Part shown: positions 52,045-64,000 of the stretch, in pieces
Position numbering within the stretch: position 1 is the stretch's first letter
How the letters are laid out: the number at the start of each line of letters is the position of its first letter
Origin: Bifidobacterium stellenboschense
GTDB lineage: Bacteria; Actinomycetota; Actinomycetes; Actinomycetales; Bifidobacteriaceae
Assembly (NCBI RefSeq): GCF_000741785.1
Contig: NZ_JGZP01000016.1
Span: forward strand, 1-64,000
Reading direction: 5' to 3'
DNA length: 64,000 bases
Program-made: the position numbers and the translations under genes
The notes under the pieces: model-generated
What the model was told of the DNA's origin: nothing
The model's database searches: none
What the model saw: the letters and a program-made list of their open reading frames with translations, nothing else

Positions 52045-53061
52045 ATGACTGATACGAACGAGAACAAGAACAACGCGACGAACGTCGCCTATTTCGCGGG
52101 CGGCTGCTTCTGGGGGCTGGAACGCTACTTCCAGAACGTGGACGGCGTGACCGACACGACCGTCGGTTACGCGCAGTCCACCGTCGAGAACCCGACCTAC
52201 GAGCAGGTGTGTGCGGGCCAGACCGACGCCGCCGAAACCGTGAAGGTGACGTTCGACCCGTCGCGCGTGAGCCTGCGCACGCTTTCGCTGCTGTTCCTCG
52301 AGGTCATCGACCCGTTCTCCGTGGACCGTCAGGGCGAGGATTCCGGTCGACAGTACCGCACTGGCATGTTCTTCACGTCCGATGCGCAGCGGTCGACCTA
52401 TATCGCCGCGATCGAGCAGCTGATCGACCGCCAGCCGCAGCGTCCGGCCGTGCTCATCGAGCCGCTACGCAACTTCTACCCGGCGGAGGCGCATCATCAA
52501 GATTATCTGGTGAACAATCCCGGCGGCTACTGCCATATCCCGCTCGCCGCGATCGCGAACGTGAAGCGCCGCCAGAAGTACGTGGAGAAGATCTGGGATC
52601 TGACGCTCGAACAGTTCGCGGTGACGCAGAACGCCGCCACCGAACGCCCGTTCGTCAACGAATACGACCACACGTTCGAGCCGGGCATCTACGTGGACAT
52701 CGTGAGCGGCGAGCCGCTGTTCTCGTCGCGTGACAAGTTCGATTCCGGCTGCGGCTGGCCCGCGTTCTCGAAGCCGATTGCGGCGTCGTCGCTGACCGAG
52801 CATGCCGACGACCGTGTGCCCGGCCGCCCGCGCATCGAGATCCGCACCGCGGACACGCAGATTCATCTCGGCCACGTGTTCGAGGACGGTCCCGCCGACC
52901 GCGGCGGCCTGCGCTACTGCATGAACAGCGCCGCATTGCGTTTCGTGCCGCTCTCCCGTATGGAGGAGGAGGGCTACGCCAAGTGGATCCCGGTGGTCGA
53001 CGGCGATGCCGACGGTGATGGTGCCGGTGCGGCTGGTGTGGCCGGCGTGACCAGCGAGTGA
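52045..53061 (+). CDS. msrAB: Bifunctional peptide methionine sulfoxide reductase MsrA/MsrB
   Basis: 338 aa. MsrA domain (~12-170): [13 protein letters not shown] with the catalytic Cys, [18 protein letters not shown], and [15 protein letters not shown]. MsrB domain (~180-310): [24 protein letters not shown], and catalytic Cys in [14 protein letters not shown]. The CXXC zinc pairs of many MsrB proteins are not seen. Repairs both S- and R-methionine sulfoxide. The C-terminal Asp/Gly/Ala-rich tail (~25 residues) lies in the 88-base overlap with the convergent Fic gene. Confidence 0.95.
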
Positions 53062-54275
53062 CGCCGCGGCTCGGTCAGCATCCGTTCCACCAAATCGATC
53101 ATCACGTCCTTTTCGTCAGGGTCGCTTACCGCTACGAGTAACGTGATGGCCGCGAGATCGTTGTTGGTGATTTCCGGCGTATGGCCGCCGGCGAAGGCGT
53201 CGGCGTTTCCTTCAAGGAATCGCACGAACAGTGCGGCGGCCATGCGTTTATTGCCGTCGGCGAATGGATGGTCCTTGACCATGAAATACAGCAGATGCGC
53301 GGCTTTCTCCTCGACTGTCGGGTACAGGTCCTGACCGTCGAAGCTCTGATAGATGGCGCCGATGATGCGTTCCACGGATTCGCCCCGTTCCTGCCCGAGC
53401 AACGAATCGGCGGGGTATGCCTGTCTCAGACGCATCGACAGAGCATGGACGTCATCAGTCCCGAGCTTCCAGACCGGATGTGTTTGCGGTTCAGGAGACA
53501 GTTCGCGCGCATCGTAGTCGCGCAGCATGTCCAATCCCGGCAGGTAGCTTGATACCACATCCGCGATGCCGACTGCCAGCTGGTTGTCGCTGCGGGCAAG
53601 CACGTTGACGATTCTTCCCAGCTGTTCCAGACGTCGCTTGTTGGCCGCATAGCCCTCGATGAGATATCGCCTCAGCACGGTGGTGGCCCAGCGGCGGAAT
53701 TGCACGCCGCGTTGCGATTTCACGCGATAACCCACGGAGATGATGACGTCGAGATCGTAGTAGGTGACAGGCTTGTCGGATTGGGCAATTTGCACTTTTT
53801 GCAAATTGCTTTCTCCGTTGATTTCTCCTTCCGCAATGGCGTTGGTGATATGCCGGGAAATCGACGCTACGGAACGGCCGAACAGCTCCGCCATCTGGGC
53901 CTGAGTCAGCCATACCGTGTCGCCATTCACATTGACTTCCAGTTGTATGGTGCCATCCTCGGAACGGTACAGTTCAATGTTCTTGGCTGATTCGTGGGGC
54001 GGCGTTTTCGTGACGATGTCTGATGATGCGGCCACGTCGGGCTCATCATCGACATCGGGCAAGATGATGCCGGTGAAGCTTGCCGTGGCCGGCGTGAGCG
54101 GGCTGGCGAGGGCGTCGAGCGCCTGCTCGTACCGTTGCAGGAAATCCTGTGTCGGATTCCCTTCGCGTTCCGCGCGCGACAGCGCCGACTGGGTGGTCCC
54201 CATGGCCTTCGCCACCGCGCCCTGCGTGACGTGCAGTCGCCGGCGCTCCTCGCGCAGCTCCTCAATGCTTTTCAT
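52974..54275 (-). CDS. XRE-RhuM-Fic fusion protein
   Basis: 433 aa, ATG 54275. Three modules: an XRE-type helix-turn-helix (~1-60, [26 protein letters not shown]), a RhuM-like domain (~100-235, [54 protein letters not shown]), and a Fic/Doc domain (~300-400, [19 protein letters not shown]). The Fic motif has Lys before Arg, as in Doc kinases, not the AMPylator GNGR. Probably a toxin with its own DNA-binding and self-control part. The last 88 bases overlap the end of msrAB; the last residues ([16 protein letters not shown]) look appended. Confidence 0.88.
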
Positions 54276-54282
54276 GTCTTTA

Positions 54283-54302
54283 ATATAGCATATGCGCTAT
54301 AT
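54283..54302. promoter_or_regulatory. Inverted repeat at the Fic-fusion promoter
   Basis: ATATAGC (54283-54289) and GCTATAT (54296-54302) flank ATATGC, 8 bases upstream of the start codon. It probably overlaps the -10 region, so it suits autorepression by the protein's XRE domain (inference). Confidence 0.55.
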
Positions 54303-54446
54303 GAGACACGGCGGGGACTGCTTCGATGTGGATGCGAATCTGATGCGGGGTGAGTGTCGACATGAGGTGAATGTCGGCATAAGGCGCGCGTGGGGCGCGG
54401 TTGCGCCGGTCGACGTGGATGTAGGGCGCGATGGTTTTCGCGGTGA

Positions 54447-54462
54447 TGTTTCACGTGAAACA
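54447..54462. other. parS centromere site
   Basis: TGTTTCACGTGAAACA is an exact match to the bacterial parS consensus bound by ParB. It lies in the gap between the Fic gene and the metallophosphoesterase gene, ~34 kb from the oriC candidate, as expected for origin-proximal parS. Confidence 0.92.
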
Positions 54463-54512
54463 CCATGATGAAATCATCGCCTGTCGCGGCCGTGATGCCT
54501 GTCGTCGTCGCG

Positions 54513-55544
54513 TCACTGCGTGTGCGGCGTGACGCTCCACGCGCCGCCGGCGGCACGGTCGTACAGTAGCAGTGAGTCGTCGCCGATCGGCCGTCCGTTG
54601 CGATACAGCGAATGAGTGTCGCAATACCACAGTTCCGCGCGATGGCGCCCCGACTGGCGTCCGGCTGCGGCAGGCGCACCCGTGCCGATGCCACAGCGGC
54701 GGTAGAGCGTCGTGGTGACCGGCGTGTGGCCGACGATCTGCCGGTATCCGGCGAGCGGGTCGAGCGCCAACTCCTCCATGCCGGTCCAGACTGGCGACGG
54801 AATCGATCCGGGCCAGCCGCCGCGCTCATATCCGACCATTACGCCGAACGGCCGGATGCCGCCGGCGATATGCCCTTGCGCGAACGCGTCGATCGCATCG
54901 GCTACCTGTGCCGCGCCGGGGATGGGGGAGCGGGCGCCGGTCTTTTCGGCGGAGTCGCCGCCCGGCAGTGTCTCATCCGGCAGCGGCTTGTTTGACAATG
55001 GTTCTCCCGGCAGTGGTTCGCCCGCGTCGGCGAGTTTGCCGATCATCCATTCCCACCATGCCTGCGTGACGCCGGCATGCGAGGCGAGCACCTGATTCCC
55101 CCGCGCATCCGCGAACCCGTAGGCGAGTCGCGGGCGCATCATGTGCAGCAGATAATGCACGTCCGGATAGGCGCCATCGTTGTAGCCGGGGCAGGTGTCG
55201 CGGAACGCGCGATGGTCGGCCATCGCGGAATCCGCCCAGTAGGTGAGGTCGTGATGGCCGAGCAGGACGACGACCTCGCGCTGCTCACGTTGCCGATTCA
55301 CCCACTCCGCAAGCCGCTCGAACGCGGCGATCTCGCCGGCGGCGCTGATGCCCCACTCGTTGAGCAGGTCGCCAAGCAGGACGATCGTGCCGGCGTCAGT
55401 GCGATCCGCCGCCTCCTCGATGATCGGGCAGATCTTCGTGCCCTTGCAGTGGATGTCGCCGGAGAAGAGGATGTGGTCGGCGCGCGAACCATCCTGTCCA
55501 AGTCCGCGCCGCCATCGTTTCGCACGCTGCGGCGGTTCGGGCAA
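54513..55544 (-). CDS. Metallophosphoesterase (calcineurin-like), probable 5' truncation by an in-frame stop
   Basis: 343 aa from a TTG start (55544) without ribosome site. Motifs of the two-metal phosphoesterase fold: FSGDIHCKG, VLLGDLLNEWG, LLGHHDLTYWADS, LASHAGVTQAWWEW, and VGHTPVTTTLYRRCG. All are intact. A better start, ATG 55625 with GGAAAGGAACGGA, is in the same frame but a TAA follows after 15 codons (55580-55578). The ATG overlaps the end of the upstream gene, so the two form an operon. Either the TAA makes this a recent nonsense allele, or the 15-codon ORF is a translated leader and re-initiation follows. A Pro/Leu-rich low-complexity loop (GEPLPGEPLSNKPLPDETLPG) is also present. 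Confidence 0.7.
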   Translation of the reverse strand: MPEPPQRAKRWRRGLGQDGSRADHILFSGDIHCKGTKICPIIEEAADRTDAGTIVLLGDLLNEWGISAAGEIAAFERLAEWVNRQREQREVVVLLGHHDLTYWADSAMADHRAFRDTCPGYNDGAYPDVHYLLHMMRPRLAYGFADARGNQVLASHAGVTQAWWEWMIGKLADAGEPLPGEPLSNKPLPDETLPGGDSAEKTGARSPIPGAAQVADAIDAFAQGHIAGGIRPFGVMVGYERGGWPGSIPSPVWTGMEELALDPLAGYRQIVGHTPVTTTLYRRCGIGTGAPAAAGRQSGRHRAELWYCDTHSLYRNGRPIGDDSLLLYDRAAGGAWSVTPHTQ

Positions 55545-55580
55545 TACGCGCGCCTTGGCGACGGCCGCAGACCCGTCTTA

Positions 55581-55625
55581 GTCGTCGGCATCGTACGTGC
55601 CGAAGATGAGATCGTCAATCCGCAT
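55581..55625 (-). other. 15-codon reading frame before the in-frame TAA
   Basis: Encodes MRIDDLIFGTYDADD. It has the strong ribosome site the metallophosphoesterase ORF lacks and is in frame with it. One base change (TAA to CAA) would join the two into one protein. Confidence 0.55.
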
Positions 55626-57036
55626 GATTCCGTTCCTTTCCTTGTGGCTGATCGTACTGCGGTCTCGCTGTCTTCGTTTGTTTCGTTTGTTCTGCCGGCG
55701 TCGCTAGTTCCGGCGTTCGTTCCGGTGTCCGTTTCGGTGATTGTTCTGATTGCCCCGTTTCGTTCAGACACGTCGCAATCAGCCCGTGGATGCGCAAAGC
55801 GTCGAATCCGAGTTCACGAAGTCGCCTGGCCATGTACCGGGTCTGCTGATCGTCGAGCACGTTGTCGGGGATCGGTTTGAACTCGTCCCATTCGCGCCTC
55901 CAGTATCGCGACGTGCGTACGCACCTCCTGCAGAGCGGTTTCCGCCAGTCGCGGGGGCGGCGGATGAGCCAGCGAACGTCATGCTGGGTGCCGCAGCTGA
56001 AGCATGTCCGCGAGGCAAGCATCTCATAAAGCCGTGCGACGAGATGCAATGATTCGGGCAGTGCGTCCGGCATGAGACGTGACCCCCTGTTCGTTGGTGT
56101 GAAGACGAAGCGCGGCAGGCCGTCGACATGCTGGTACTGCACGATGCGGAAGGGGCGGTCCAATGAGTCCAGGACGGTTTGGAAGTCCATATACATGTCG
56201 ACGCCGAACCGGATGTGCCAGCCGGCCTGCAGGTGGCCGGTCTCAGGCAGCCACGGCCAGTATTGGTGCTCGAACACGGTCGCGTCGTATCGGGTGGTGC
56301 CCAAGTGCAGCGCCGCGCGCATGATCGAGGTGGGCGGAACGGGAGATGTGTCGGCGTGTGATCGCAGCCATGGTGCGAGATCATGGTTCGACGTGGGATA
56401 GTAGTCGGCGACCATGGTCTGCAGTTGGGCGGCGCACTCGTGCAGGCAGTCGGCCATGAACGCGATGGCCTTGCGGCGGTTGTTCGGGTTGAGTCGGGTG
56501 AATCGGCGTTCGTAGCCGTAGCGAATCCGGTCGATTCGGTCGGCGTCGTCGACATCTCCGCTGTCGCGACGGTTCGCGGCCATGATGAGCAGCACGTCCA
56601 TCGCGCCGTGGTAGGCATCCGTGGCACGGTGGAACAGCTGCTCCTTGTTGAACTGGCAGGTGTCCACGGGAGCCCAGAGCGGGATTTCGTCGAGCAGCGA
56701 CCGCTCCTCGGCGGTGAACCGCGGCCACGGATCCGGGTCGGATGATCGCGCCAACGCGGCGTCGCGCGTGGCGCTCAGCATCGACCGGCGGGTGATTGCA
56801 TCGGCGTTCGTGTGGAGCGGCTTGGGGATCGGTTCGATTGAATCGCGCAGACGGGTGAGATAGTAACGGATGTCCTGTTTTGTCCGTCGCAGCAGCTGGT
56901 CGGCATACGGCGATGATTCAGGATTGCGGAACGGCATCTCGTCACAGGTGATGAAGAACTCCAATCGACGTTCCGACCATGCGAACCGGTACGTGTACGT
57001 GTCGGCGATGCCGTCGAACGATGATCGTTCCTGCAT
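55615..57036 (-). CDS. Hypothetical protein with CxxC pairs
   Basis: 473 aa, ATG 57036, with GAAAGAAG upstream. Not recognised. Mostly polar, no membrane segment. Arg- and Trp-rich; contains a probable zinc site: CFSCGTQHDVRWLIRRPRDWRKPLCRRC (two CxxC pairs ~20 residues apart, ~residues 370-400). The C terminus is Thr/Pro/Gln-rich and disordered (SPKRTPERTPELATPAEQTKQTK). Overlaps the start of the metallophosphoesterase unit by 11 bases. Controlled from the shared divergent region at 57097-57209. Confidence 0.6.
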   Translation of the reverse strand: MQERSSFDGIADTYTYRFAWSERRLEFFITCDEMPFRNPESSPYADQLLRRTKQDIRYYLTRLRDSIEPIPKPLHTNADAITRRSMLSATRDAALARSSDPDPWPRFTAEERSLLDEIPLWAPVDTCQFNKEQLFHRATDAYHGAMDVLLIMAANRRDSGDVDDADRIDRIRYGYERRFTRLNPNNRRKAIAFMADCLHECAAQLQTMVADYYPTSNHDLAPWLRSHADTSPVPPTSIMRAALHLGTTRYDATVFEHQYWPWLPETGHLQAGWHIRFGVDMYMDFQTVLDSLDRPFRIVQYQHVDGLPRFVFTPTNRGSRLMPDALPESLHLVARLYEMLASRTCFSCGTQHDVRWLIRRPRDWRKPLCRRCVRTSRYWRREWDEFKPIPDNVLDDQQTRYMARRLRELGFDALRIHGLIATCLNETGQSEQSPKRTPERTPELATPAEQTKQTKTARPQYDQPQGKERNHAD

Positions 57037-57096
57037 GATTCACTTCTTTCCGCGTGAGGTCGTTCCGTGCGGGCGTCGTGTCCGTATCGTTCCGCA

Positions 57097-57209
57097 CTCA
57101 CTTCTTATAACCGGACAAACCACTGTTCGTACGATTCGGCGACGTATCGACACGCCGGTCGTCCGCCATCCGCTGTCGTCCCGCCATTTGTCCGGTTATA
57201 GGAAGTGAG
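57097..57209. promoter_or_regulatory. Divergent promoter region with a 23-bp inverted repeat (shared motif set)
   Basis: Two 23-base arms (57097-57119 and 57187-57209), inverted with one mismatch, each holding TTTGTCCGGTTATA. Between them is CGACACGCCGG (57148-57158). Each arm lies 38-60 bases from the start of one of the divergent genes. The same motifs recur upstream of three other transcription units to the right. Confidence 0.8.
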
Positions 57210-57247
57210 AGCGACGGTCGCGACGAGCGGAAAGGAACGTGTGCATC

Positions 57248-58063
57248 ATGTCGAGTGTGTCGCGCGGGAACGACGACGAAGGCAGGGCCGTGCTTGCCTT
57301 GCGGTATGCACAGGGCTTTCGGCCCATGCGTATGATGAACCATGATGCCGGTCTCATCAATGCCAGACTCGGTACTGATTTCCATGTGTACCGTTTCCGT
57401 CGTCCGCGCCGTATGCCGGACGGCGAATGGGATTGCCGGTTCCAACTGCCTGTGCTCGTATACCGGTACGGCGAGGTGGCGTATACGATGCACAGTCCGC
57501 ACCGTATGTTCGACGTTCGGTATCTGCGTGCGAACGTGCAGCGGGGCAGGCGGTCTTCGACGACGCGACTGCATATCACGTACGCCGATCCGCTGGCGCT
57601 GCATGTTGCCGACATCCGCATCACCGGCATCGATATGGTGCCTACATTCGCGGACGTGCGGAATGCAAACCTGCTGATCGAGGACGATGATGACACGGCT
57701 GACGGTGGCACATGCATGCCGTGGGTGTGCGCGGTCTCGGAACGACGATGCGGTCTTGTGTTCCCGCTCACGTATGATACGCAGCTGACGTGCCGGTCAC
57801 GCAGGACGGACGGCATGCACAGGGACGTGGAGATCGGCGTCGAACGTTCGGAACCGTACCGGTACGGCAACCCGGCGGCTGTCAGCGTGTACTCCCGGTA
57901 TCCGGAGGGACCGGACGTGGTCGGCGACGAGGAGGTGCTCGCACGGCTGGAGGAGGATTCCGCGCTGTTGCATCGTCTCGTGATGATGCGCGAATCCGAG
58001 GGGTACGGGATTGTCACGCAGGCGTTGGTGCGGTTGCGTGCGGAGAATCGGGAGAACGTGTGA
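57248..58063 (+). CDS. Hypothetical protein
   Basis: 271 aa from ATG 57248, GGAAAGGAA upstream (GTG 57239 is also open). Not recognised. Predicted soluble and beta-rich, Arg-rich (VYRFRRPRRMPDGEWDCRFQLPVLVYRYGEVAYTMHSPHRMFDVRYLRANVQRGRR). A middle Cys cluster (GGTCMPWVCAVSERRCGLVFPLTYDTQLTC) and a C-terminal helical end (GDEEVLARLEEDSALLHRLVMMRESEGYGIVTQALVRLRAE). Its stop overlaps the next start, so the two are one operon. No homology recognised to the divergent 473-aa protein. Confidence 0.6.
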   Translation: MSSVSRGNDDEGRAVLALRYAQGFRPMRMMNHDAGLINARLGTDFHVYRFRRPRRMPDGEWDCRFQLPVLVYRYGEVAYTMHSPHRMFDVRYLRANVQRGRRSSTTRLHITYADPLALHVADIRITGIDMVPTFADVRNANLLIEDDDDTADGGTCMPWVCAVSERRCGLVFPLTYDTQLTCRSRRTDGMHRDVEIGVERSEPYRYGNPAAVSVYSRYPEGPDVVGDEEVLARLEEDSALLHRLVMMRESEGYGIVTQALVRLRAENRENV

Positions 58064-58527
58064 TGTTGATGACTGGCGCGGTGATGACGCGGGGAACGGT
58101 GACGCGAGACATCACTCGGGGACTGGCGGTGGATTCGCCGGAACAGGTGACGACCGGAGGCCCCGTTGACGTCGATTTCCCACCGGATCCGGATGGTCGG
58201 GGAAAAGGTAAACCGTTCTGCGTCTACGTCGACGATGGCCCCGAGCCGATACCCTGCATTAAGGATCCGGAGTATTTCATCCGCGGATACTGTTGGGATC
58301 CCGCCTGCCTGCACGTGCATACGTGGTATTACTGCCTGCGCCACTATGCCGTGACCATCGGCAAGCTTGCGCACCAGTGGTGCGTCCTTGGGGCCTCATT
58401 CGAGGTGGCGATGCAAATTCGCGCCGGCAACGTGCCCGTACGCTACCAAATCCTGGAATGGGGCCGCATGGGCGAAGAAGGCGAGCATCCGCTCCCCGCC
58501 CCGCCCGATATCAGACAGCTTGGGTGA
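58063..58527 (+). CDS. Hypothetical Cys/His-rich protein
   Basis: 154 aa from ATG 58063 (TGATG overlap; GGGAGAA upstream). Not recognised. Five Cys and several His in the middle (FCVYVDDGPEPIPCIKDPEYFIRGYCWDPACLHVHTWYYCLRHYAVTIG), suggesting metal binding. Its 3' end overlaps the small minus-strand gene by 17 bases. Confidence 0.55.
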   Translation: MLMTGAVMTRGTVTRDITRGLAVDSPEQVTTGGPVDVDFPPDPDGRGKGKPFCVYVDDGPEPIPCIKDPEYFIRGYCWDPACLHVHTWYYCLRHYAVTIGKLAHQWCVLGASFEVAMQIRAGNVPVRYQILEWGRMGEEGEHPLPAPPDIRQLG

Positions 58528-58693
58528 TTCTATCGAGCTTGGGGTTCTCCTTCAATATTTGCTCGGCGGTGCGGGTCAACGCCGCGAGTGTCTGTTCCCC
58601 CGGGCCCCTGTTGGAGGCGATTTCCCTGCCAATGGAATAATCGTGGCGTGGTGGTTCATATGTCTCATCCAAATAACGAGGTGCACAACTCAT
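58511..58693 (-). CDS. Small protein sharing a segment with the 367-aa protein at 61987
   Basis: 60 aa. DETYEPPRHDYSIGREIASNRGPGEQTLAALTRTAEQILKENPKLD matches ETYRPPQHQRPDYSIGQEIIDCKGPNEHIIAMLLPIAERLLKNKPNF of the larger protein in order and spacing. That conservation supports real coding despite the weak ribosome site (GGGGAATGAT). Either a stand-alone domain gene or a remnant. Confidence 0.55.
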   Translation of the reverse strand: MSCAPRYLDETYEPPRHDYSIGREIASNRGPGEQTLAALTRTAEQILKENPKLDRITQAV

Positions 58694-58772
58694 ATCATTC
58701 CCCTTCGTCGCGGGATCCCACGCAGCATGGCAAACAGCTTAGCACTGCAATGTCGTCCGGTGGCGTACGGAA

Positions 58773-59570
58773 TCACTCGTTGGTCCGGGCCAGACACTTG
58801 TTCGTACGGACATCCTCCGTGATTTGATGCAAGCTATATGATTGGGCTTTGATGTCCTGCTCGCTTGCGGTTCCACTGGTCAGCATATCCTGTGATGCGG
58901 CGAGTACGTCTGCCAGACGACCGCGGTCATACGGATTGCAGAGGCCGCCATTCGCCGTATTTTTCAGCACGGCTTTCGCTTGGGCGATGCGGGATTCGAG
59001 GGAGTCGTCGGTGGGCAGCGTGGATGGATCGGTGGAAGTGCTGAGTTCGTCTTCCGCCTTGCTAATGAGCTTCTTGACTTCGATGAGTTTATCCTTGTAC
59101 GACTTCTCCAGTTTCTGCGCCGACTTCACCGTCTGTTGCATCGATTCGACTGAGCCGTCACAAGACAGATCCGGTTTCGTCAGATTCTCAGAGGCGATCT
59201 CCCATTGCACTTCCAGATTCGGGTCTTTGGCGAGCAGCATATCTGTATTGATGTCGGCGTTGTCGACTTCCTCCTTGAGCGCGTTGAACGCCTTGATCGT
59301 GTCATCGACCACTGCCTGGCAGGCCTCCGACGCATCCGACGTGCCTGCTGAATTGTCGGAATCCGTGGAAGCGTCATCTCCAGTGGTGTTGCTCCGCTCG
59401 GACGCGGCGGACGACTGCTCGCCGCTATCGTCGGTGGCTCCGGATGCATACGTGTACGGCTGCGTGCATGCGGACAAGCTTGCGATGACCAGCACCGATG
59501 CCGCCAACGCCACCAACCTGCTCATGCTCATGATTCGACGATTCCGATGCTGCTGTTGGTTCCCGTTCAT
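58773..59570 (-). CDS. Hypothetical lipoprotein
   Basis: 265 aa from ATG 59570, with GGAGG 8 bases upstream. Signal peptide (MSRLVALAASVLVIASLSAC) with lipobox LSAC, preceded by a polar His/Arg-rich N terminus. Then a Ser/Asp/Thr-rich linker and a mainly helical domain (ACQAVVDDTIKAFNALKEEVDNADIN, KSAQKLEKSYKDKLIEVKKLISKAEDEL). Three further Cys could form disulphides. Exported and lipid-anchored; function unknown. Monocistronic, with a motif-bearing promoter region at 59617-59679. Confidence 0.7.
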   Translation of the reverse strand: MNGNQQQHRNRRIMSMSRLVALAASVLVIASLSACTQPYTYASGATDDSGEQSSAASERSNTTGDDASTDSDNSAGTSDASEACQAVVDDTIKAFNALKEEVDNADINTDMLLAKDPNLEVQWEIASENLTKPDLSCDGSVESMQQTVKSAQKLEKSYKDKLIEVKKLISKAEDELSTSTDPSTLPTDDSLESRIAQAKAVLKNTANGGLCNPYDRGRLADVLAASQDMLTSGTASEQDIKAQSYSLHQITEDVRTNKCLARTNE

Positions 59571-59616
59571 GGCGAGACCTCCATTCGTTTCCTCCGAATT
59601 CCTTGTCACTCATCTC

Positions 59617-59679
59617 AACCGGACAAACGCAATGAATGACATGCGAATCGTTGAAAACACAGGGCTTTATCGGCGTGTC
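59617..59679 (-). promoter_or_regulatory. Lipoprotein upstream region with shared motifs
   Basis: On the minus strand, TTTGTCCGGTT (59627-59617) lies 46 bases from the ATG; GACACGCCG (59679-59671) is 43 bases further upstream. Confidence 0.65.
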
Positions 59680-59696
59680 ACGCGCTGATACAGGTA

Positions 59697-60437
59697 TTAA
59701 TGCCGCTGTGCTAGTGCTTTAACCGGATTTATCATCAGCATGCCGAGCAGCATCAGCGCGAGAATCACCACTTGCGTCATTGTGAGCAACGGCAGCGGCA
59801 CGGGGGCGGCGTCCCCTCTGAGCCAGTCTTCGGTGAATCGTGCCGCCGCGCAGCAGCACGTCAGTATCGTCAGCAGACGTTCTGGCGTTATGCGTGCGGA
59901 GAGTATGTGCATGACGCCGAACAACACGAACATGATGATGGAATCGATGATTTGCGTCGGAACCAGCGGGATGCCGTTGGGGGCGACGGGGGATTCGTGG
60001 AATACGATGCCGTATGCGAACGGCTTCCCGTAGCAGCATCCCTCGAACAGGCACCCGATGCGGATAATCGATATCGCCAACGGCAGCGCAGGCGCCAGAC
60101 GAGGCAGGAACGAGAAGATATTCCAGCCGAAGAACCGGCACGTCACTATCGCTCCGATACCGGCACCGGTTATGCCTCCTACGACGGAGGAGCCTCCGAA
60201 AATCTCCGATGGAGAGTGAGCCTTACCGCTGGCGAATGTGATGAGTGCATACACAAGTTTCGCTCCCACGATTGCGCCGATCGCGGTCAATGCGTACAGG
60301 TAGATCGCGTCTTCGACGGATTGTCGTTCATGCCATGTGCGGAGCGTGATGTACCCGCCGGCGGCAAACGCGGCCGTGACGAACAAAACGCCGTATGTGG
60401 ATAGGACGGTCGTGCCGAATATCAGATAAGGATACAT
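59697..60437 (-). CDS. Lgt-like membrane protein (prolipoprotein diacylglyceryl transferase family)
   Basis: 246 aa, about seven membrane segments. ATG 60437 shares one base with the preceding stop. The Lgt pattern is recognisable (VVGGITGAGIGAIVTCRFFGWN; ISIIRIGCLFEGCCYGKPFAYGIVFHESP; LVPTQIIDSIIMFVLF), but the canonical GRxGNxxNxE is replaced by RIGCLFEGCCYG. This is the divergent Lgt-like clade; whether it modifies lipoproteins is unknown. A lipoprotein gene next door makes that attractive but unproved. Confidence 0.75.
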   Translation of the reverse strand: MYPYLIFGTTVLSTYGVLFVTAAFAAGGYITLRTWHERQSVEDAIYLYALTAIGAIVGAKLVYALITFASGKAHSPSEIFGGSSVVGGITGAGIGAIVTCRFFGWNIFSFLPRLAPALPLAISIIRIGCLFEGCCYGKPFAYGIVFHESPVAPNGIPLVPTQIIDSIIMFVLFGVMHILSARITPERLLTILTCCCAAARFTEDWLRGDAAPVPLPLLTMTQVVILALMLLGMLMINPVKALAQRH

Positions 60438-61030
60438 CAGGTATTACGTGAAGAGCTATCGGAGGATGCAACGCAGCCGAAGCATGTGATGAGGATGACC
60501 GCGCTGACGGACAGTGCGACTACGGAGATGGCGAATCCGGCCGTTCTCACTGTGCCCTTGTATCCAAGCTTTTTCGATATGGTGGCGGCCACAATCCCCA
60601 TGATTCCCAAGAAGGCTGCAGGAATCAAAAAGTCGAGATTGGAAATTCCCAGACAACAGAAAATTGCGCCGAGAATGCCGATACTGAGACTGACAATAGC
60701 AAGAGCTAATCCAGCGGCCGAGTCCGGCTTTTTCTGCGGTGCCTGATTCGGTACCACATACGGATAGCTGTTGTATGGTCCAGTTCCGTTCGGCGGATAC
60801 GGATCATTCGGATATCCTGGGTTCGAATAAGCCGGCGGCACCGGCCCTGACGGCGGCACCGGCCCCGCAGGGTAAGACGCGTTCATCGGAGTTCCGACAT
60901 ATCCCGGGGCCGTCGGCGCGTTCATGGGGACGGTGGACGGACCATACCCATAGCCATATGACTGCGCGGGATCCGCCTGTTGGGTTTGCGGCGGCAGAGG
61001 GATCGTGGGTTGCTGATTGGGGTTGCTCAT
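60437..61030 (-). CDS. Membrane protein with Pro/Tyr-rich N terminus (DUF4190-like)
   Basis: 197 aa from ATG 61030 (GGAG upstream). N-terminal ~105 residues are Pro/Tyr/Asn/Gln-rich and disordered. Two C-terminal membrane pairs with Cys and Gly (AGLALAIVSLSIGILGAIFCCLGI, LIPAAFLGIMGIVAATI, TAGFAISVVALSVSAVILITCFGC) fit DUF4190-type proteins. Often found in actinobacteria as sensors or scaffolds; no function known. In an operon with the Lgt-like and zinc-ribbon genes. Confidence 0.65.
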   Translation of the reverse strand: MSNPNQQPTIPLPPQTQQADPAQSYGYGYGPSTVPMNAPTAPGYVGTPMNASYPAGPVPPSGPVPPAYSNPGYPNDPYPPNGTGPYNSYPYVVPNQAPQKKPDSAAGLALAIVSLSIGILGAIFCCLGISNLDFLIPAAFLGIMGIVAATISKKLGYKGTVRTAGFAISVVALSVSAVILITCFGCVASSDSSSRNT

Positions 61031-61058
61031 TCCGTTCTCCTTCCGTTCTGGCTGCTGC

Positions 61059-61778
61059 TCAGACCCAACTCCAGACTTGCAGGACCGTGGGCAGCTGTGG
61101 ATTGTTGGCATCGCGCCATAGGCAGTATAGGGCGAAGATGAGCGTCGCCACCGGCGTGATGAGGCGATAGTGCGTCCAGTTGTTGTATTCGAGCTGTACG
61201 GTGTCCCAGTTCAGGATGATTGCCGATTCGATGTCGGAGAACCCTACGGAAGCGAATCCCGTCGTGGCGGGGCGGAGTGTCTCTTTCCCGCTCCAGAACG
61301 AGTGCCCGCTGACCAAAGCCGTGGGAAGATAATAGAACCCGTGTTCGGTTACGGTGAGTGACCCCTGTGCGAGGAATCGGTAGAGATCCATGCCGGCCGT
61401 GCCCCAAGCCCTATATGTGCCTCCGCGATGGAAAGTCACGTCTCCGGATGAATCGACGGTTGCATGGTCACGAGTCGTGTACGTCCAGTGCCTGTGTTGG
61501 AGCAATTCGTAGGGAGCGTTGGCCATTCGTCGTTCATCGTCACTGAAATACCTCATAGGCGGACCGAACGATTCGGCACCTGTGTAGTGACCGTTGTCGG
61601 AGACATCGTTATAGGCGCGGATGAAGAACTGGTTCCACTCATGCTGCAACTGAGGGTCAATACCGCGATTCGGGTAGCAGAGCCGATCCGGCGTGGCGCT
61701 TCGGATGAGCTGACGGCGCTCACACGCTAGGCAACGTCCGTTGCCGGTCAGTTTCGCTCCGCATATCATGCATTGCAT
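61059..61778 (-). CDS. Zinc-ribbon protein with C-terminal membrane segment
   Basis: 239 aa from ATG 61778, preferred over ATG 61799 because GGAAAGGAG lies 6 bases upstream of it. N-terminal CMICGAKLTGNGRCLACERR is a zinc ribbon. The body is beta-rich and unrecognised (Trp/Tyr-rich, TYTTRDHATVDSSGDVTFHRGGTYRAWGTAGMD...). A likely membrane helix is near the C terminus (LITPVATLIFALYCLW). First gene of the three-gene operon; 28 bases before the next. Confidence 0.65.
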   Translation of the reverse strand: MQCMICGAKLTGNGRCLACERRQLIRSATPDRLCYPNRGIDPQLQHEWNQFFIRAYNDVSDNGHYTGAESFGPPMRYFSDDERRMANAPYELLQHRHWTYTTRDHATVDSSGDVTFHRGGTYRAWGTAGMDLYRFLAQGSLTVTEHGFYYLPTALVSGHSFWSGKETLRPATTGFASVGFSDIESAIILNWDTVQLEYNNWTHYRLITPVATLIFALYCLWRDANNPQLPTVLQVWSWV

Positions 61779-61802
61779 ATCGTTCTCCTTTCCGCTCATT
61801 AC

Positions 61803-61859
61803 AACCGGACAAAGGTTGCTGGAGGGCTATTTTCGTTGGAAACACTCGGCGTGTCGCAT
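61803..61859 (-). promoter_or_regulatory. Zinc-ribbon operon upstream region with shared motifs
   Basis: TTTGTCCGGTT (61813-61803) is 24 bases from the ATG; CGACACGCCG (61856-61847) is 33 bases further up. 61831-61859 is identical over 29 bases to 63159-63187. Confidence 0.75.
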
Positions 61860-61986
61860 ATTGGCCATCCTTGGCTAACTGTTTGGGGTTACGTAAAGAA
61901 ACGTGGGTCTTATCCGGGTGCGTCGTCGGTGTGTTCCTTTCCTTTATCGTCCGCAATCACAGGGCCGCGCACCCGGATTGGCTTGC

Positions 61987-63090
61987 TCAGGCCATCCAGG
62001 GGTCCGCATAGGTCGGGAACGTCGTATCGTCGATGAACGTCATCACGCGATCGGATATCCGATCCTCGAACTCATCCTGTTTGTCGGAGTACCGTTCGTC
62101 GTATTCCAGCGCCTTCTCCATGTTGGGGGACGGGTCGAAGCCGTCCTGGATCAGGTCGGGACGAAAGTCCACCATGACCTGGGCGACATCGTAGATGCTC
62201 AATGCCCCGTGGACGGTTTGAAACAGGAACATCAGCCATCGGTCGAATTCGCCGTACAACTCGGCCTCTGTTTTGTTCTTGCCGAGATTGCAGCCTCTGC
62301 ACCTGTCGATGCTGATGCCGTTGCCATCGTCATTCACGTGGTATTGGAACTGCATACGCTGCCGATGCTTGGCTTGCAGTTCCTCCTCGGACGGCATTTT
62401 AAGTTTTGTAAACGGGCGATAGACCTTCTCGTACACCGTTCTGCGTCGGGCTCGGACGATTCTGTCGGGGGCGCCCAGGAGCTTGTAGTACGTGCCTGTG
62501 GAGGCGTTCTGGTTCGACTGGTCGTCGAGATGATGGGCTTTCCTCTCAACGAAGAAGGCCTTGTTGGTGTCGCTGGTCAGGCGATGCCTGATGGTGGCGG
62601 CCAGACGACCGAAGTCCGTATCGTCGTAGACGTCCAGCAGCGCCCAATACATCGCCGTGCTGGCACGCGCCAGGAATGATGCGTCGCTGGTCGCCTCCGC
62701 GTACAGATCGACGAACTTGGGTCCCAATCCGATGGGGGTTCCGTCGCGGTCGCATTGGTAGCAGAGGTTCATCACCACGCCGTCAGGCTCGCTGAGCATG
62801 GCGTAATTGGGATTGCATTCGAGATGCTTGAGCTGGCGGCGGAAATTGGGCTTGTTCTTCAGCAAGCGCTCGGCGATGGGCAGCAGCATGGCGATGATGT
62901 GTTCGTTCGGTCCCTTGCAGTCGATGATCTCCTGACCGATGGAGTAGTCAGGTCGCTGGTGCTGCGGTGGCCGATAGGTCTCCTTCCAGAAGCGCAGCTG
63001 CTCGTTGACGATGGGGCATGCCGGATGGCGACGCCTGCGGGATGCCCCACGACGCCTACGCTGTGGATTGGTGCGACGTGACTTGTTCAT
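61987..63090 (-). CDS. Hypothetical protein with PDYSIG segment and Cys pairs
   Basis: 367 aa from ATG 63090 (GGAGG 8 bases upstream). Arg-rich N terminus (RRTNPQRRRRGASRRRRHP), then the segment shared with the 60-aa gene (ETYRPPQHQRPDYSIGQEI...LLKNKPNF). Cys pairs at LCYQC and RCRGCNLGKNK; the second faintly recalls HNH-type metal motifs but is not enough to call a nuclease. Acidic C terminus. No membrane segment. Monocistronic. Confidence 0.65.
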   Translation of the reverse strand: MNKSRRTNPQRRRRGASRRRRHPACPIVNEQLRFWKETYRPPQHQRPDYSIGQEIIDCKGPNEHIIAMLLPIAERLLKNKPNFRRQLKHLECNPNYAMLSEPDGVVMNLCYQCDRDGTPIGLGPKFVDLYAEATSDASFLARASTAMYWALLDVYDDTDFGRLAATIRHRLTSDTNKAFFVERKAHHLDDQSNQNASTGTYYKLLGAPDRIVRARRRTVYEKVYRPFTKLKMPSEEELQAKHRQRMQFQYHVNDDGNGISIDRCRGCNLGKNKTEAELYGEFDRWLMFLFQTVHGALSIYDVAQVMVDFRPDLIQDGFDPSPNMEKALEYDERYSDKQDEFEDRISDRVMTFIDDTTFPTYADPWMA

Positions 63091-63129
63091 GGTGATGACC
63101 TCCGTCCTTCTATTCCATTCATCATTCAC

Positions 63130-63187
63130 AACCGGATAAAAGCCATGAGAGTGGCCGATTTCGTTGGAAACACTCGGCGTGTCGCAT
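63130..63187 (-). promoter_or_regulatory. PDYSIG-gene upstream region with shared motifs
   Basis: TTTATCCGGTT (63140-63130) is 39 bases from the ATG and CGACACGCCG (63184-63175) 33 bases further upstream, with the same spacing as at 61803. Confidence 0.75.
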
Positions 63188-63331
63188 GTTGACCCTCCTT
63201 GACCAAACGTTCGTGTCGGCACTGTGCCGATGCTGGGTCGTCTCGCTTGTGTGGTTGCGCCGCGATGCACGGTGCGTTCGGGACGACCTGGGAAACAGTG
63301 TACATGAGTTTTGTGTGAGATAGTTTCACAA

Positions 63332-63361
63332 TTGACAAACGGGGGTCGCGCGCGGTAGGCT
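63332..63361 (+). promoter_or_regulatory. Possible sigma-70 promoter for the gene at the right edge
   Basis: TTGACA (63332-63337) and TAGGCT (63356-63361), 18 bases apart, 71 bases from the GTG start. Good -35, weak -10. The gap 63188-63331 shows nothing else. Confidence 0.4.
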
Positions 63362-63431
63362 TTCGTGTCCAACAGGCATTGACGAACATCGGCGGGTTCC
63401 GGCACCCGCCGCAAACAAGGAGCATGCGGTC

Positions 63432-64000
63432 GTGGGTGATAAATATTCCTATATGCTGTCCTCATCGGACATCGCCAGAATGGTCAACATGCGTCCCTCG
63501 GCGGTTTCCAATTGGAGAAAACGCGCGAACACCGGCTTCCCCCAGTCCGTTGCGACCAAGGACGGACGGCCGTTGTTCGACTACGGCGCAGTCGTCAAAT
63601 GGCTCGATTCGAGGGGTGTCAAGTATAAGGACATCCGTCTGGAACAGGGGATGTGGACGTTCCTCGAACACTGGCGCGGCGACGGCGATCCGGTCGAAGC
63701 CGTATCGATTGTGCTGTGGGCGATGTGCCTGCGCGTCGTCGTCGACGAATACGGTCTGTCCGCGCGTTGGAAAAAACTGGTCGATGGAACCAACGATCAG
63801 AATGACAGTACGCCGATCGGCAGCCGTCTGGCGCCGCTGGTCAAGCGCATCCTCGAAGGCGCCGGCTGCGGGGAAGGCAGCAGGCACGCCGACGAGGTCA
63901 TCCGCATGGCGTTGACCATGACGGACAGAGTGCGCGGGTTGACGCTCTATCAACTGCACGATCTGCTGATGTACGTCGATAGCCTCTTCAAGGTCGACGG
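63432..64000 (+). CDS. N-terminal part of a putative N-6 DNA methylase-like protein (runs off the window)
   Basis: GTG 63432 (AAGGAG 10 bases upstream) opens a frame with no stop to the window end, at least 189 residues. Residues ~9-65 look like a helix-turn-helix found at the start of actinobacterial N-6 DNA methylases: SSSDIARMVNMRPSAVSNWRKRANTGFPQ, PLFDYGAVVKWLDSRG. A helical region follows (TFLEHWRGDGDPVEAVSIVLWAMCLRVVV, VIRMALTMTDRVRGLTLYQLHDLLMYVDSLF). The catalytic NPPF/Y motif would be beyond the edge, so the call is an inference. Other possibility: an unrelated DNA-binding protein. Confidence 0.45.
   Translation, partial: MGDKYSYMLSSSDIARMVNMRPSAVSNWRKRANTGFPQSVATKDGRPLFDYGAVVKWLDSRGVKYKDIRLEQGMWTFLEHWRGDGDPVEAVSIVLWAMCLRVVVDEYGLSARWKKLVDGTNDQNDSTPIGSRLAPLVKRILEGAGCGEGSRHADEVIRMALTMTDRVRGLTLYQLHDLLMYVDSLFKVD

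Follow-up and report, generated by a model that had tools for sequence, protein, structure and literature searches.

A stretch of 64,000 nucleotides from the genome of Bifidobacterium stellenboschense (contig NZ_JGZP01000016.1, positions 1 to 64,000; hereafter the window) contains a gene island in which an 11-base box, TTTRTCCGGTT, stands before five transcription units. We tentatively read this box as the core promoter of a dedicated regulon for defence and DNA repair, in which a sigma-like protein, FAM2, would read the box, a second protein, FAM6, would hold FAM2, and a protease, FAM4, would release it upon damage. A sharper version, in which FAM2 is a divergent immune sigma factor silenced by a MazF-like domain, freed by a DNA-damage protease, and served by private promoter letters that co-evolve with it, seems doubtful to us. 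FAM2 (367 amino acids; 61987..63090, minus strand; the ‘PDYSIG protein’ of a preliminary description of the window) is probably the regulator or reader of the box and not just another of its targets. The single trans-acting regulator suggested for all five units in that description is most likely, given that the box tracks one module in 112 Bifidobacterium genomes and that its letters differ in one of them, G028.

A scan of the window found TTTRTCCGGTT, exact in every letter, at the five places previously described, and all coordinates matched. The boxes lie at 57109..57119 (minus strand), leading a unit of a 473-amino-acid protein and a metallophosphoesterase; 57187..57197 (plus strand), leading the gene pair 57248/58069; 59617..59627 (minus strand), leading a lipoprotein; 61803..61813 (minus strand), leading a zinc-ribbon, DUF4190-like, and Lgt-like unit; and 63130..63140 (minus strand), leading FAM2 itself, which makes autoregulation likely. 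The first four read TTTGTCCGGTT, followed after seven bases by GTG or, at 61803, by GCG, and the fifth reads TTTATCCGGTT. Between box and start codon the sequence gives about 72, 41–50, 46, 24, and 39 bases in the same order, in keeping with the 24–75 bases first reported, and the 29 identical bases attributed to two of the regions were seen at 61803 and 63130. These five are the only exact copies in the whole 2.81-Mb genome, compared with two for a control pattern, and they span just 6,032 bp, where 0.004 copies are expected at the control rate; such clustering is far beyond chance. When up to one mismatch is allowed, the window has seven matches; shuffled sequence averages 0.69, and not one of 100 shuffles gave as many as seven. 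A sixth copy, in the longer form TTGTCCGGTT-N7-GYR, is found in the same genome at G000:C6:426, 90 bp 5′ of sbcD.

At least one TTTRTCCGGTT occurs in 73 of the 112 genomes of the genus. Many genomes have only one or two copies, roughly the level of control patterns, and some have clusters and divergent pairs. The genus-wide intergenic form of the box is TTGTCCGGTT-N7-G-Y-R: in an alignment of 45 sites, chosen by hand, the clearest positions beyond the core are G, Y, and R at a constant seven-base distance, and no −10/−35 pattern was seen at a constant distance from the box. Among loci collected before this pattern came into use, the full G-Y-R follows 32 of 47 intergenic cores versus two of eight intragenic ones; overall, 98 of 111 exact cores are intergenic, many among them having been fetched for their match to the pattern. 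The end of the box is a median of 69 bases from the start codon (n = 79), and ten divergent pairs have 26–99 bases between members. Genes in the fetched loci were called with a simple hexamer model that set some starts wrong (59495 for the likely 59570) and missed some genes, an error carried by all counts of led genes. In one genome, B. biavatii (G010), box-tied loci are found on up to seven contigs. Other genomes referred to here are those of B. saguinibicoloris (G072), B. leontopitheci (G043), B. ramosum (G067), B. jacchi (G040), B. miconis (G047), and B. reuteri (G068), and these seven are monkey-gut species. Palindromic box pairs in viral contigs (seven stretches, with gaps of 25–52 bases) were taken as chance. 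In a full-text literature search, the box 10-mer or its complement occurred in 65 papers, of which the 20 listed were unrelated, judging from titles and the beginnings of abstracts, and the available part of a paper on B. breve names only TTGACA/TATAAT promoters (PMC5746004).

Elsewhere in Bifidobacterium, FAM2 heads a triad, followed by FAM6, which combines a MazF fold with a helix-turn-helix (HTH)-like part, and FAM4, a CapP-like protease. Box number follows FAM2: genomes with FAM2 (n = 12) carry a mean of 5.6 boxes versus 0.5 in those without it (n = 100), the control sum in this comparison being approximate. In other Bifidobacterium genomes, FAM4 matches the PADLOC capP model (1.2e-15) and PF06114 (5.5e-10), and the CapP-like protease in Streptomyces matches capP at 4.8e-15. 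FAM6 has the fold of the MazF/PemK toxin family, with RNA cleavage as a putative activity; bifidobacterial FAM6 has no Pfam HTH match and no PADLOC match. The genome of the window is itself incomplete in this respect: FAM6 is absent and no match to FAM4 was found, though FAM2 and the boxes are present. Intergenic boxes also occur in four genomes (G046, G048, G053, G060) in which no triad was detected; the module may have been lost there, may fall into an assembly gap, or may have a reader that is more divergent. A search of 50,697 phage records for FAM6 found none, a word-based protein search with FAM2 returned only itself and one B. leontopitheci protein, and literature searches returned CapP papers, none of them on the FAM2-FAM6-FAM4 triad by title or beginning of the abstract. 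In B. ramosum and B. jacchi, a CapP-like protease and an HKD+Snf2 helicase share one open reading frame (L255:11182-15417 and L256:11081-15469), the HKD+Snf2 parts matching PADLOC C3a139 at 1e-113 and 9e-115, and in two other Bifidobacterium genomes the protease is followed by a DrmD-like helicase.

The two triads of G028 have FAM2 proteins that are detected by profile only, whereas BLAST still finds their FAM6 and FAM4, at 31–37%. This genome has no standard box, and the boxes before its triads read TTRTCCGGTGG. This changed string has nine copies in G028 and five in the next-highest of the 112 genomes (Poisson 4e-5, uncorrected for 112 genomes), with seven of the nine surrounding the two triads. 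It leads relatives of families that have the standard box elsewhere (FAM81, FAM5 with FAM1, FAM19, and the triad). The copy at 2009616 stands before a RecB-like gene (FAM57), the G010 and G097 relatives of which carry the standard box; the ninth copy (679077) is intragenic. A different box beside a different FAM2 is what the pairing of a reader with its site leads one to expect, and this is a single case.

The families found first 3′ of boxes include relatives of the 473-amino-acid protein, of the 57248 protein, and of FAM2, together with HAD-like proteins, lipoproteins, and membrane proteins identified by reading. Several others have clear domains. For instance, the SbcD gene of the window’s genome (L163) is box-led (PF00149 1.5e-12, SbcD_C 8.1e-6), as are its relatives in G047 and G072, AddAB/RecB-type PD-(D/E)XK and UvrD proteins, an Abi_2 protein (4.6e-46), a type I restriction R subunit (HsdR), and an ADP-ribosylglycohydrolase. 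The led families are unrelated to each other, lie on many contigs, and in many cases are not recognisable; the set is a putative defence and DNA-end-processing regulon, a large share of it unrecognised. The earlier guess of a defence role was, in this light, a good one, and the companion idea that the genes make up ‘one multi-part system’ gives way to a patchy regulon that is not one machine. The box islands L066, L064, L071, L068, and L069 repeatedly contain long proteins whose repeated domains resemble, by reading, PASTA domains.

The preliminary description had paired the box with a second motif, CGACACGCCG, and asked for a genome search for both parts. That motif is present beside the boxes, at 57148..57157 (plus strand; one copy common to the divergent pair 57109/57187, in reverse orientation relative to 57109), 61847..61856 (minus strand), and 63175..63184 (minus strand). 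It is not local, however: whereas the exact box is confined to the island, CGACACGCCG has 112 copies in this genome versus 16 for a control pattern, which rules it out as part of a specific signature. Thirty copies were read: 25 lie between genes, and by eye several stand directly 5′ of ordinary −35/−10 promoters; some are apparently upstream of tRNA genes, also by eye. The related string CGACACGCC is exact at 57148 (plus), 61848 (minus), and 63176 (minus), reads TGACACGCC at 59617, and with three window copies versus 2.79 expected is in no excess over chance. The TTGTCCGGTT box is the specific part of the signature, and CGACACGCCG is a separate, genome-wide upstream element. The element does accompany boxes: 43 exact GACACGCC elements (24 forward, 19 reverse) lie in the 80 bp 5′ of 100 non-redundant boxes, versus 0.75 expected from the local background. 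Forward distances to the box cluster at 9–10, 20–23, and 30–36 bases, a helical spacing (Rayleigh p = 6e-4 for a period of 11.0 bases, 1e-4 for 11.5, 0.005 for 10.5, and 0.05 for 10.0), and the 19 reverse elements have no significant period (p ≥ 0.07). WhiA sites, in the available part of the paper describing them, contain GACAC and are found in both orientations (PMC3781837); CGACACGCC likewise has GACAC and occurs in both orientations. This likeness concerns the general upstream element only, which is possibly a WhiA site and, judged by sequence, a candidate for one in Bifidobacterium.

Related triads extend beyond the genus. FAM6 matched four plasmid records from Streptomyces and Mycolicibacterium, and FAM2 matched six from Streptomyces, Mycolicibacterium, and Sinomonas, as well as three of 394 genomes of the class. 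In all five plasmid loci read, a FAM6 gene (detected by tblastn in two and by hhalign, at 3e-12 to 8e-16, in three) and an ImmA/IrrE protease lie directly 5′ of immune-type genes. These are cyclases of cyclic oligonucleotide-based antiphage signalling systems (CBASS) in S. longwoodensis (5.6e-174; L267:7762-12052) and Sinomonas (8.6e-167; L274:6064-10202); the other three loci have genes annotated as ThiF or multiubiquitin. On the Mycolicibacterium plasmids (L268:9103-13493 and L273:7145-11540), the FAM6-type and protease genes stand just before multiubiquitin and ThiF genes. In four of these five loci the leading gene is FAM2-like; in M. chubuense, a dehydrogenase-like gene is upstream instead. 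The Sinomonas middle gene has an XRE-like HTH (HTH_31 2.2e-4, below its cut-off) and proved by sequence comparison to be a true FAM6 homologue, which, with the CBASS cyclases, strengthens the tie of the module to immunity.

Repeated strings also occur, by eye, at like places in these plasmids: TTACGTCGTC precedes FAM6 and the gene after it in S. cathayae, and the cyclase in Sinomonas; TGACGTCA precedes FAM2, FAM6, and the cyclase gene of S. longwoodensis; and GTTGTCCCGTC precedes the FAM6-type gene and the multiubiquitin gene in both Mycolicibacterium loci, with only the G of G-Y-R kept. They often have G-Y-R seven to eight bases on, and their statistics are weaker than those of the bifidobacterial box. 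Random windows share a stretch of at least 12 bases in 20 of 4,785 draws within L272 and in 14 of 5,000 between L272 and L274, so the 12-mer before S. cathayae FAM6 and its next gene is not very rare alone; the case for a plasmid box comes from its repetition at like places in several loci and not from any single 12-mer.

How might such a module work? At 61803, the Shine-Dalgarno sequence begins directly after the GCG in the G-Y-R position, from which we infer that Y-R is the −1/+1 step; transcription would then start at G-Y-R, and the box would cover approximately −19 to −10. Damage or infection would generate single-stranded DNA and activate the CapP-like protease, a trigger modelled on the known behaviour of CapP and PprI, as given in the available parts of two reports (PMC13373217, PMC10904395). 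The protease would cut FAM6, or FAM2, as CapP cuts CapH, and freed FAM2 would take RNA polymerase to the box promoters with help from the general upstream element, drive its own operon, renew itself, and turn on nucleases and defence genes. Beyond the link between box and module, every step is one that we infer. With FAM6 missing and no FAM4 found in the genome of the window, its five units may be permanently on or run by leftover FAM2, their expression being constitutive or residual.

The sigma-like character of FAM2 draws on predicted structure. A relative of FAM2 has a predicted sigma-2-like helical domain, and the best structural matches of its N-terminal domain are to sigma region 2; the second half of the FAM2 model reads, by our own assignment of its elements, as winged-helix-like and HTH-like. 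A region-4-type HTH was read by eye in the Streptomyces and Mycolicibacterium relatives, where hhalign was negative, and was not seen in the window FAM2. The box-N7-GYR consensus and the changed box beside a divergent FAM2 would suit a promoter type of its own, the box being a putative promoter. Several points weigh against a sigma factor: the structural matches are weak, FAM2 has no match to sigma models in Pfam or NCBIfam, and profile comparisons give no link between its sequence and sigma factors. A FAM2 profile also found no match among PDB sequences, and PF08281 (sigma region 4) was uninformative as a genus-wide marker, matching 111 of 112 genomes.

The HTH of the FAM6 homologue and the CBASS cyclases also strengthen a serious rival in which FAM6 is the DNA binder, a CapH-like repressor on the box that the protease removes, with FAM2 as helper or effector and the box as an operator at start sites of the housekeeping sigma factor. 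We think this somewhat unlikely, although CapH+CapP is a known arrangement in the available part of its description (PMC13373217), CBASS cyclases, as after the S. longwoodensis and Sinomonas triads, are a known setting for it, and the box position fits an operator blocking initiation. Against it, the genome of the window has boxes and FAM2 but no FAM6; in G028, where the letters changed, FAM2 is the member detected by profile only, whereas FAM6 and FAM4 keep their BLAST matches; and a −10/−35 pattern at constant distance from the box is missing.

The same missing pattern, together with an N-terminal domain that matches sigma region 2 above all else, makes it improbable that FAM2 is an ordinary winged-HTH activator aiding the housekeeping RNA polymerase, a role for which its winged-helix-like and HTH-like second half and its lack of a sigma link in sequence profiles would suit it. 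Hardly credible to us is the notion that a mobile or recombination element, such as inverted repeats around an invertible promoter, spread with these genes and left the boxes as its copies, with no common regulator. The ten divergent pairs are indeed inverted repeats and two window regions share their 29 bases, but most boxes are single, at their usual distance before start codons of unrelated families spread over many contigs; a joint change of letters, as in G028, would be unexpected; and no recombinase was noticed among window genes beside boxes, where no search for one was made.

Apart from FAM2, the island encodes the 473-amino-acid protein with CxxC pairs (55615..57036, minus strand), whose relatives are found at six other places in four other genomes, some box-led, and the codirectional calcineurin-like metallophosphoesterase (54513..55544, minus; PF00149 2e-4). 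On the plus strand are a 271-amino-acid protein (57248..58063) with no Pfam match and box-led relatives in five other loci, and its Cys-rich partner of 152 amino acids (58069..58527), from a family with 20 members among the compared loci. A 60-amino-acid FAM2 remnant (58511..58693, minus) matches the N-terminal part of FAM2 only. The remaining minus-strand genes encode the lipoprotein (58773..59570, its start placed by eye at a Shine-Dalgarno sequence before 59570), the Lgt-like protein (59697..60437; PF01790, 3.2e-30), the DUF4190-like membrane protein (60437..61030; a label from the preliminary description, with no Pfam match over cut-off), and the zinc-ribbon protein (61059..61778; no Pfam match). 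The 473-amino-acid protein, the 57248/58069 pair, and FAM2 are also found elsewhere, but no BLAST relative of the Lgt-like, DUF4190-like, or zinc-ribbon gene turned up in the loci compared. To the left, a single open reading frame (52974-54275) combines XRE HTH, RhuM, and Fic domains, and a RhuM/Fic-like gene was also read near the G071 box island (L067:16907-17857). To the right (63432 to L006:1837, and L006:2134-6833), N6-methylase-like, HNH-type, C5 DNA methylase, and another restriction-like gene were identified by reading. The possible methylase of the preliminary description belongs, by reading, with these restriction-type neighbours, and no exact TTTRTCCGGTT precedes it.

If true, the proposed sigma-like reading would describe a genome-wide immune regulon in gut bacteria, offer a promoter string that finds unrecognised defence genes by simple search, and raise a directly testable question: is a sigma-like factor held by a MazF-like domain that a CapP-like protease then removes? 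The regulon of Deinococcus DdrO has a common DdrO site, and PprI (IrrE)-DdrO similarly ties an M78 protease to a one-promoter-sequence regulon that includes DNA-repair genes; however, DdrO is a repressor, whereas here FAM2 is the candidate reader and the targets include defence genes. Pairs of alternative sigma and anti-sigma factors released by proteolysis would share with the module a promoter type of their own, a self-driven operon, a neighbour able to hold the factor, and a protease, but FAM2 lacks a sigma match in Pfam or NCBIfam and FAM6 has a MazF fold. The RecA-NDp/PafBC promoters of mycobacteria read TTGTCRGTG-N8-TANNNT, which does not fit: by reading, each of the five window boxes has C in place of the R and lacks TANNNT at that spacing.

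The closest parallel is CapH+CapP. The known behaviour of the M78 proteases CapP and PprI points to single-stranded DNA as the signal (PMC13373217, PMC10904395), and CapW/BrxR, CapH+CapP, and CapK+CapS are described as damage-sensing controllers at the adjacent operon (PMC13373217), according to the available parts of these papers. As with CapH+CapP, a CapP-like M78 protease stands beside an HTH-like partner and immune genes, single-stranded DNA would by analogy be the signal, and the module is placed at an immune operon (CBASS cyclases; ThiF/multiubiquitin genes by annotation; DrmD-like and HKD+Snf2 helicases beside or fused to it in Bifidobacterium). Unlike CapH+CapP, the triad adds a third gene, FAM2, with a predicted sigma-2-like domain, and its partner FAM6 has a MazF-fold domain with no PADLOC match. 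The bifidobacterial target is likewise not only the next operon but a scattered one-box regulon: loci on as many as seven contigs of one genome are linked to one module by a single box, and in a relative both the letters of the box and the module differ.

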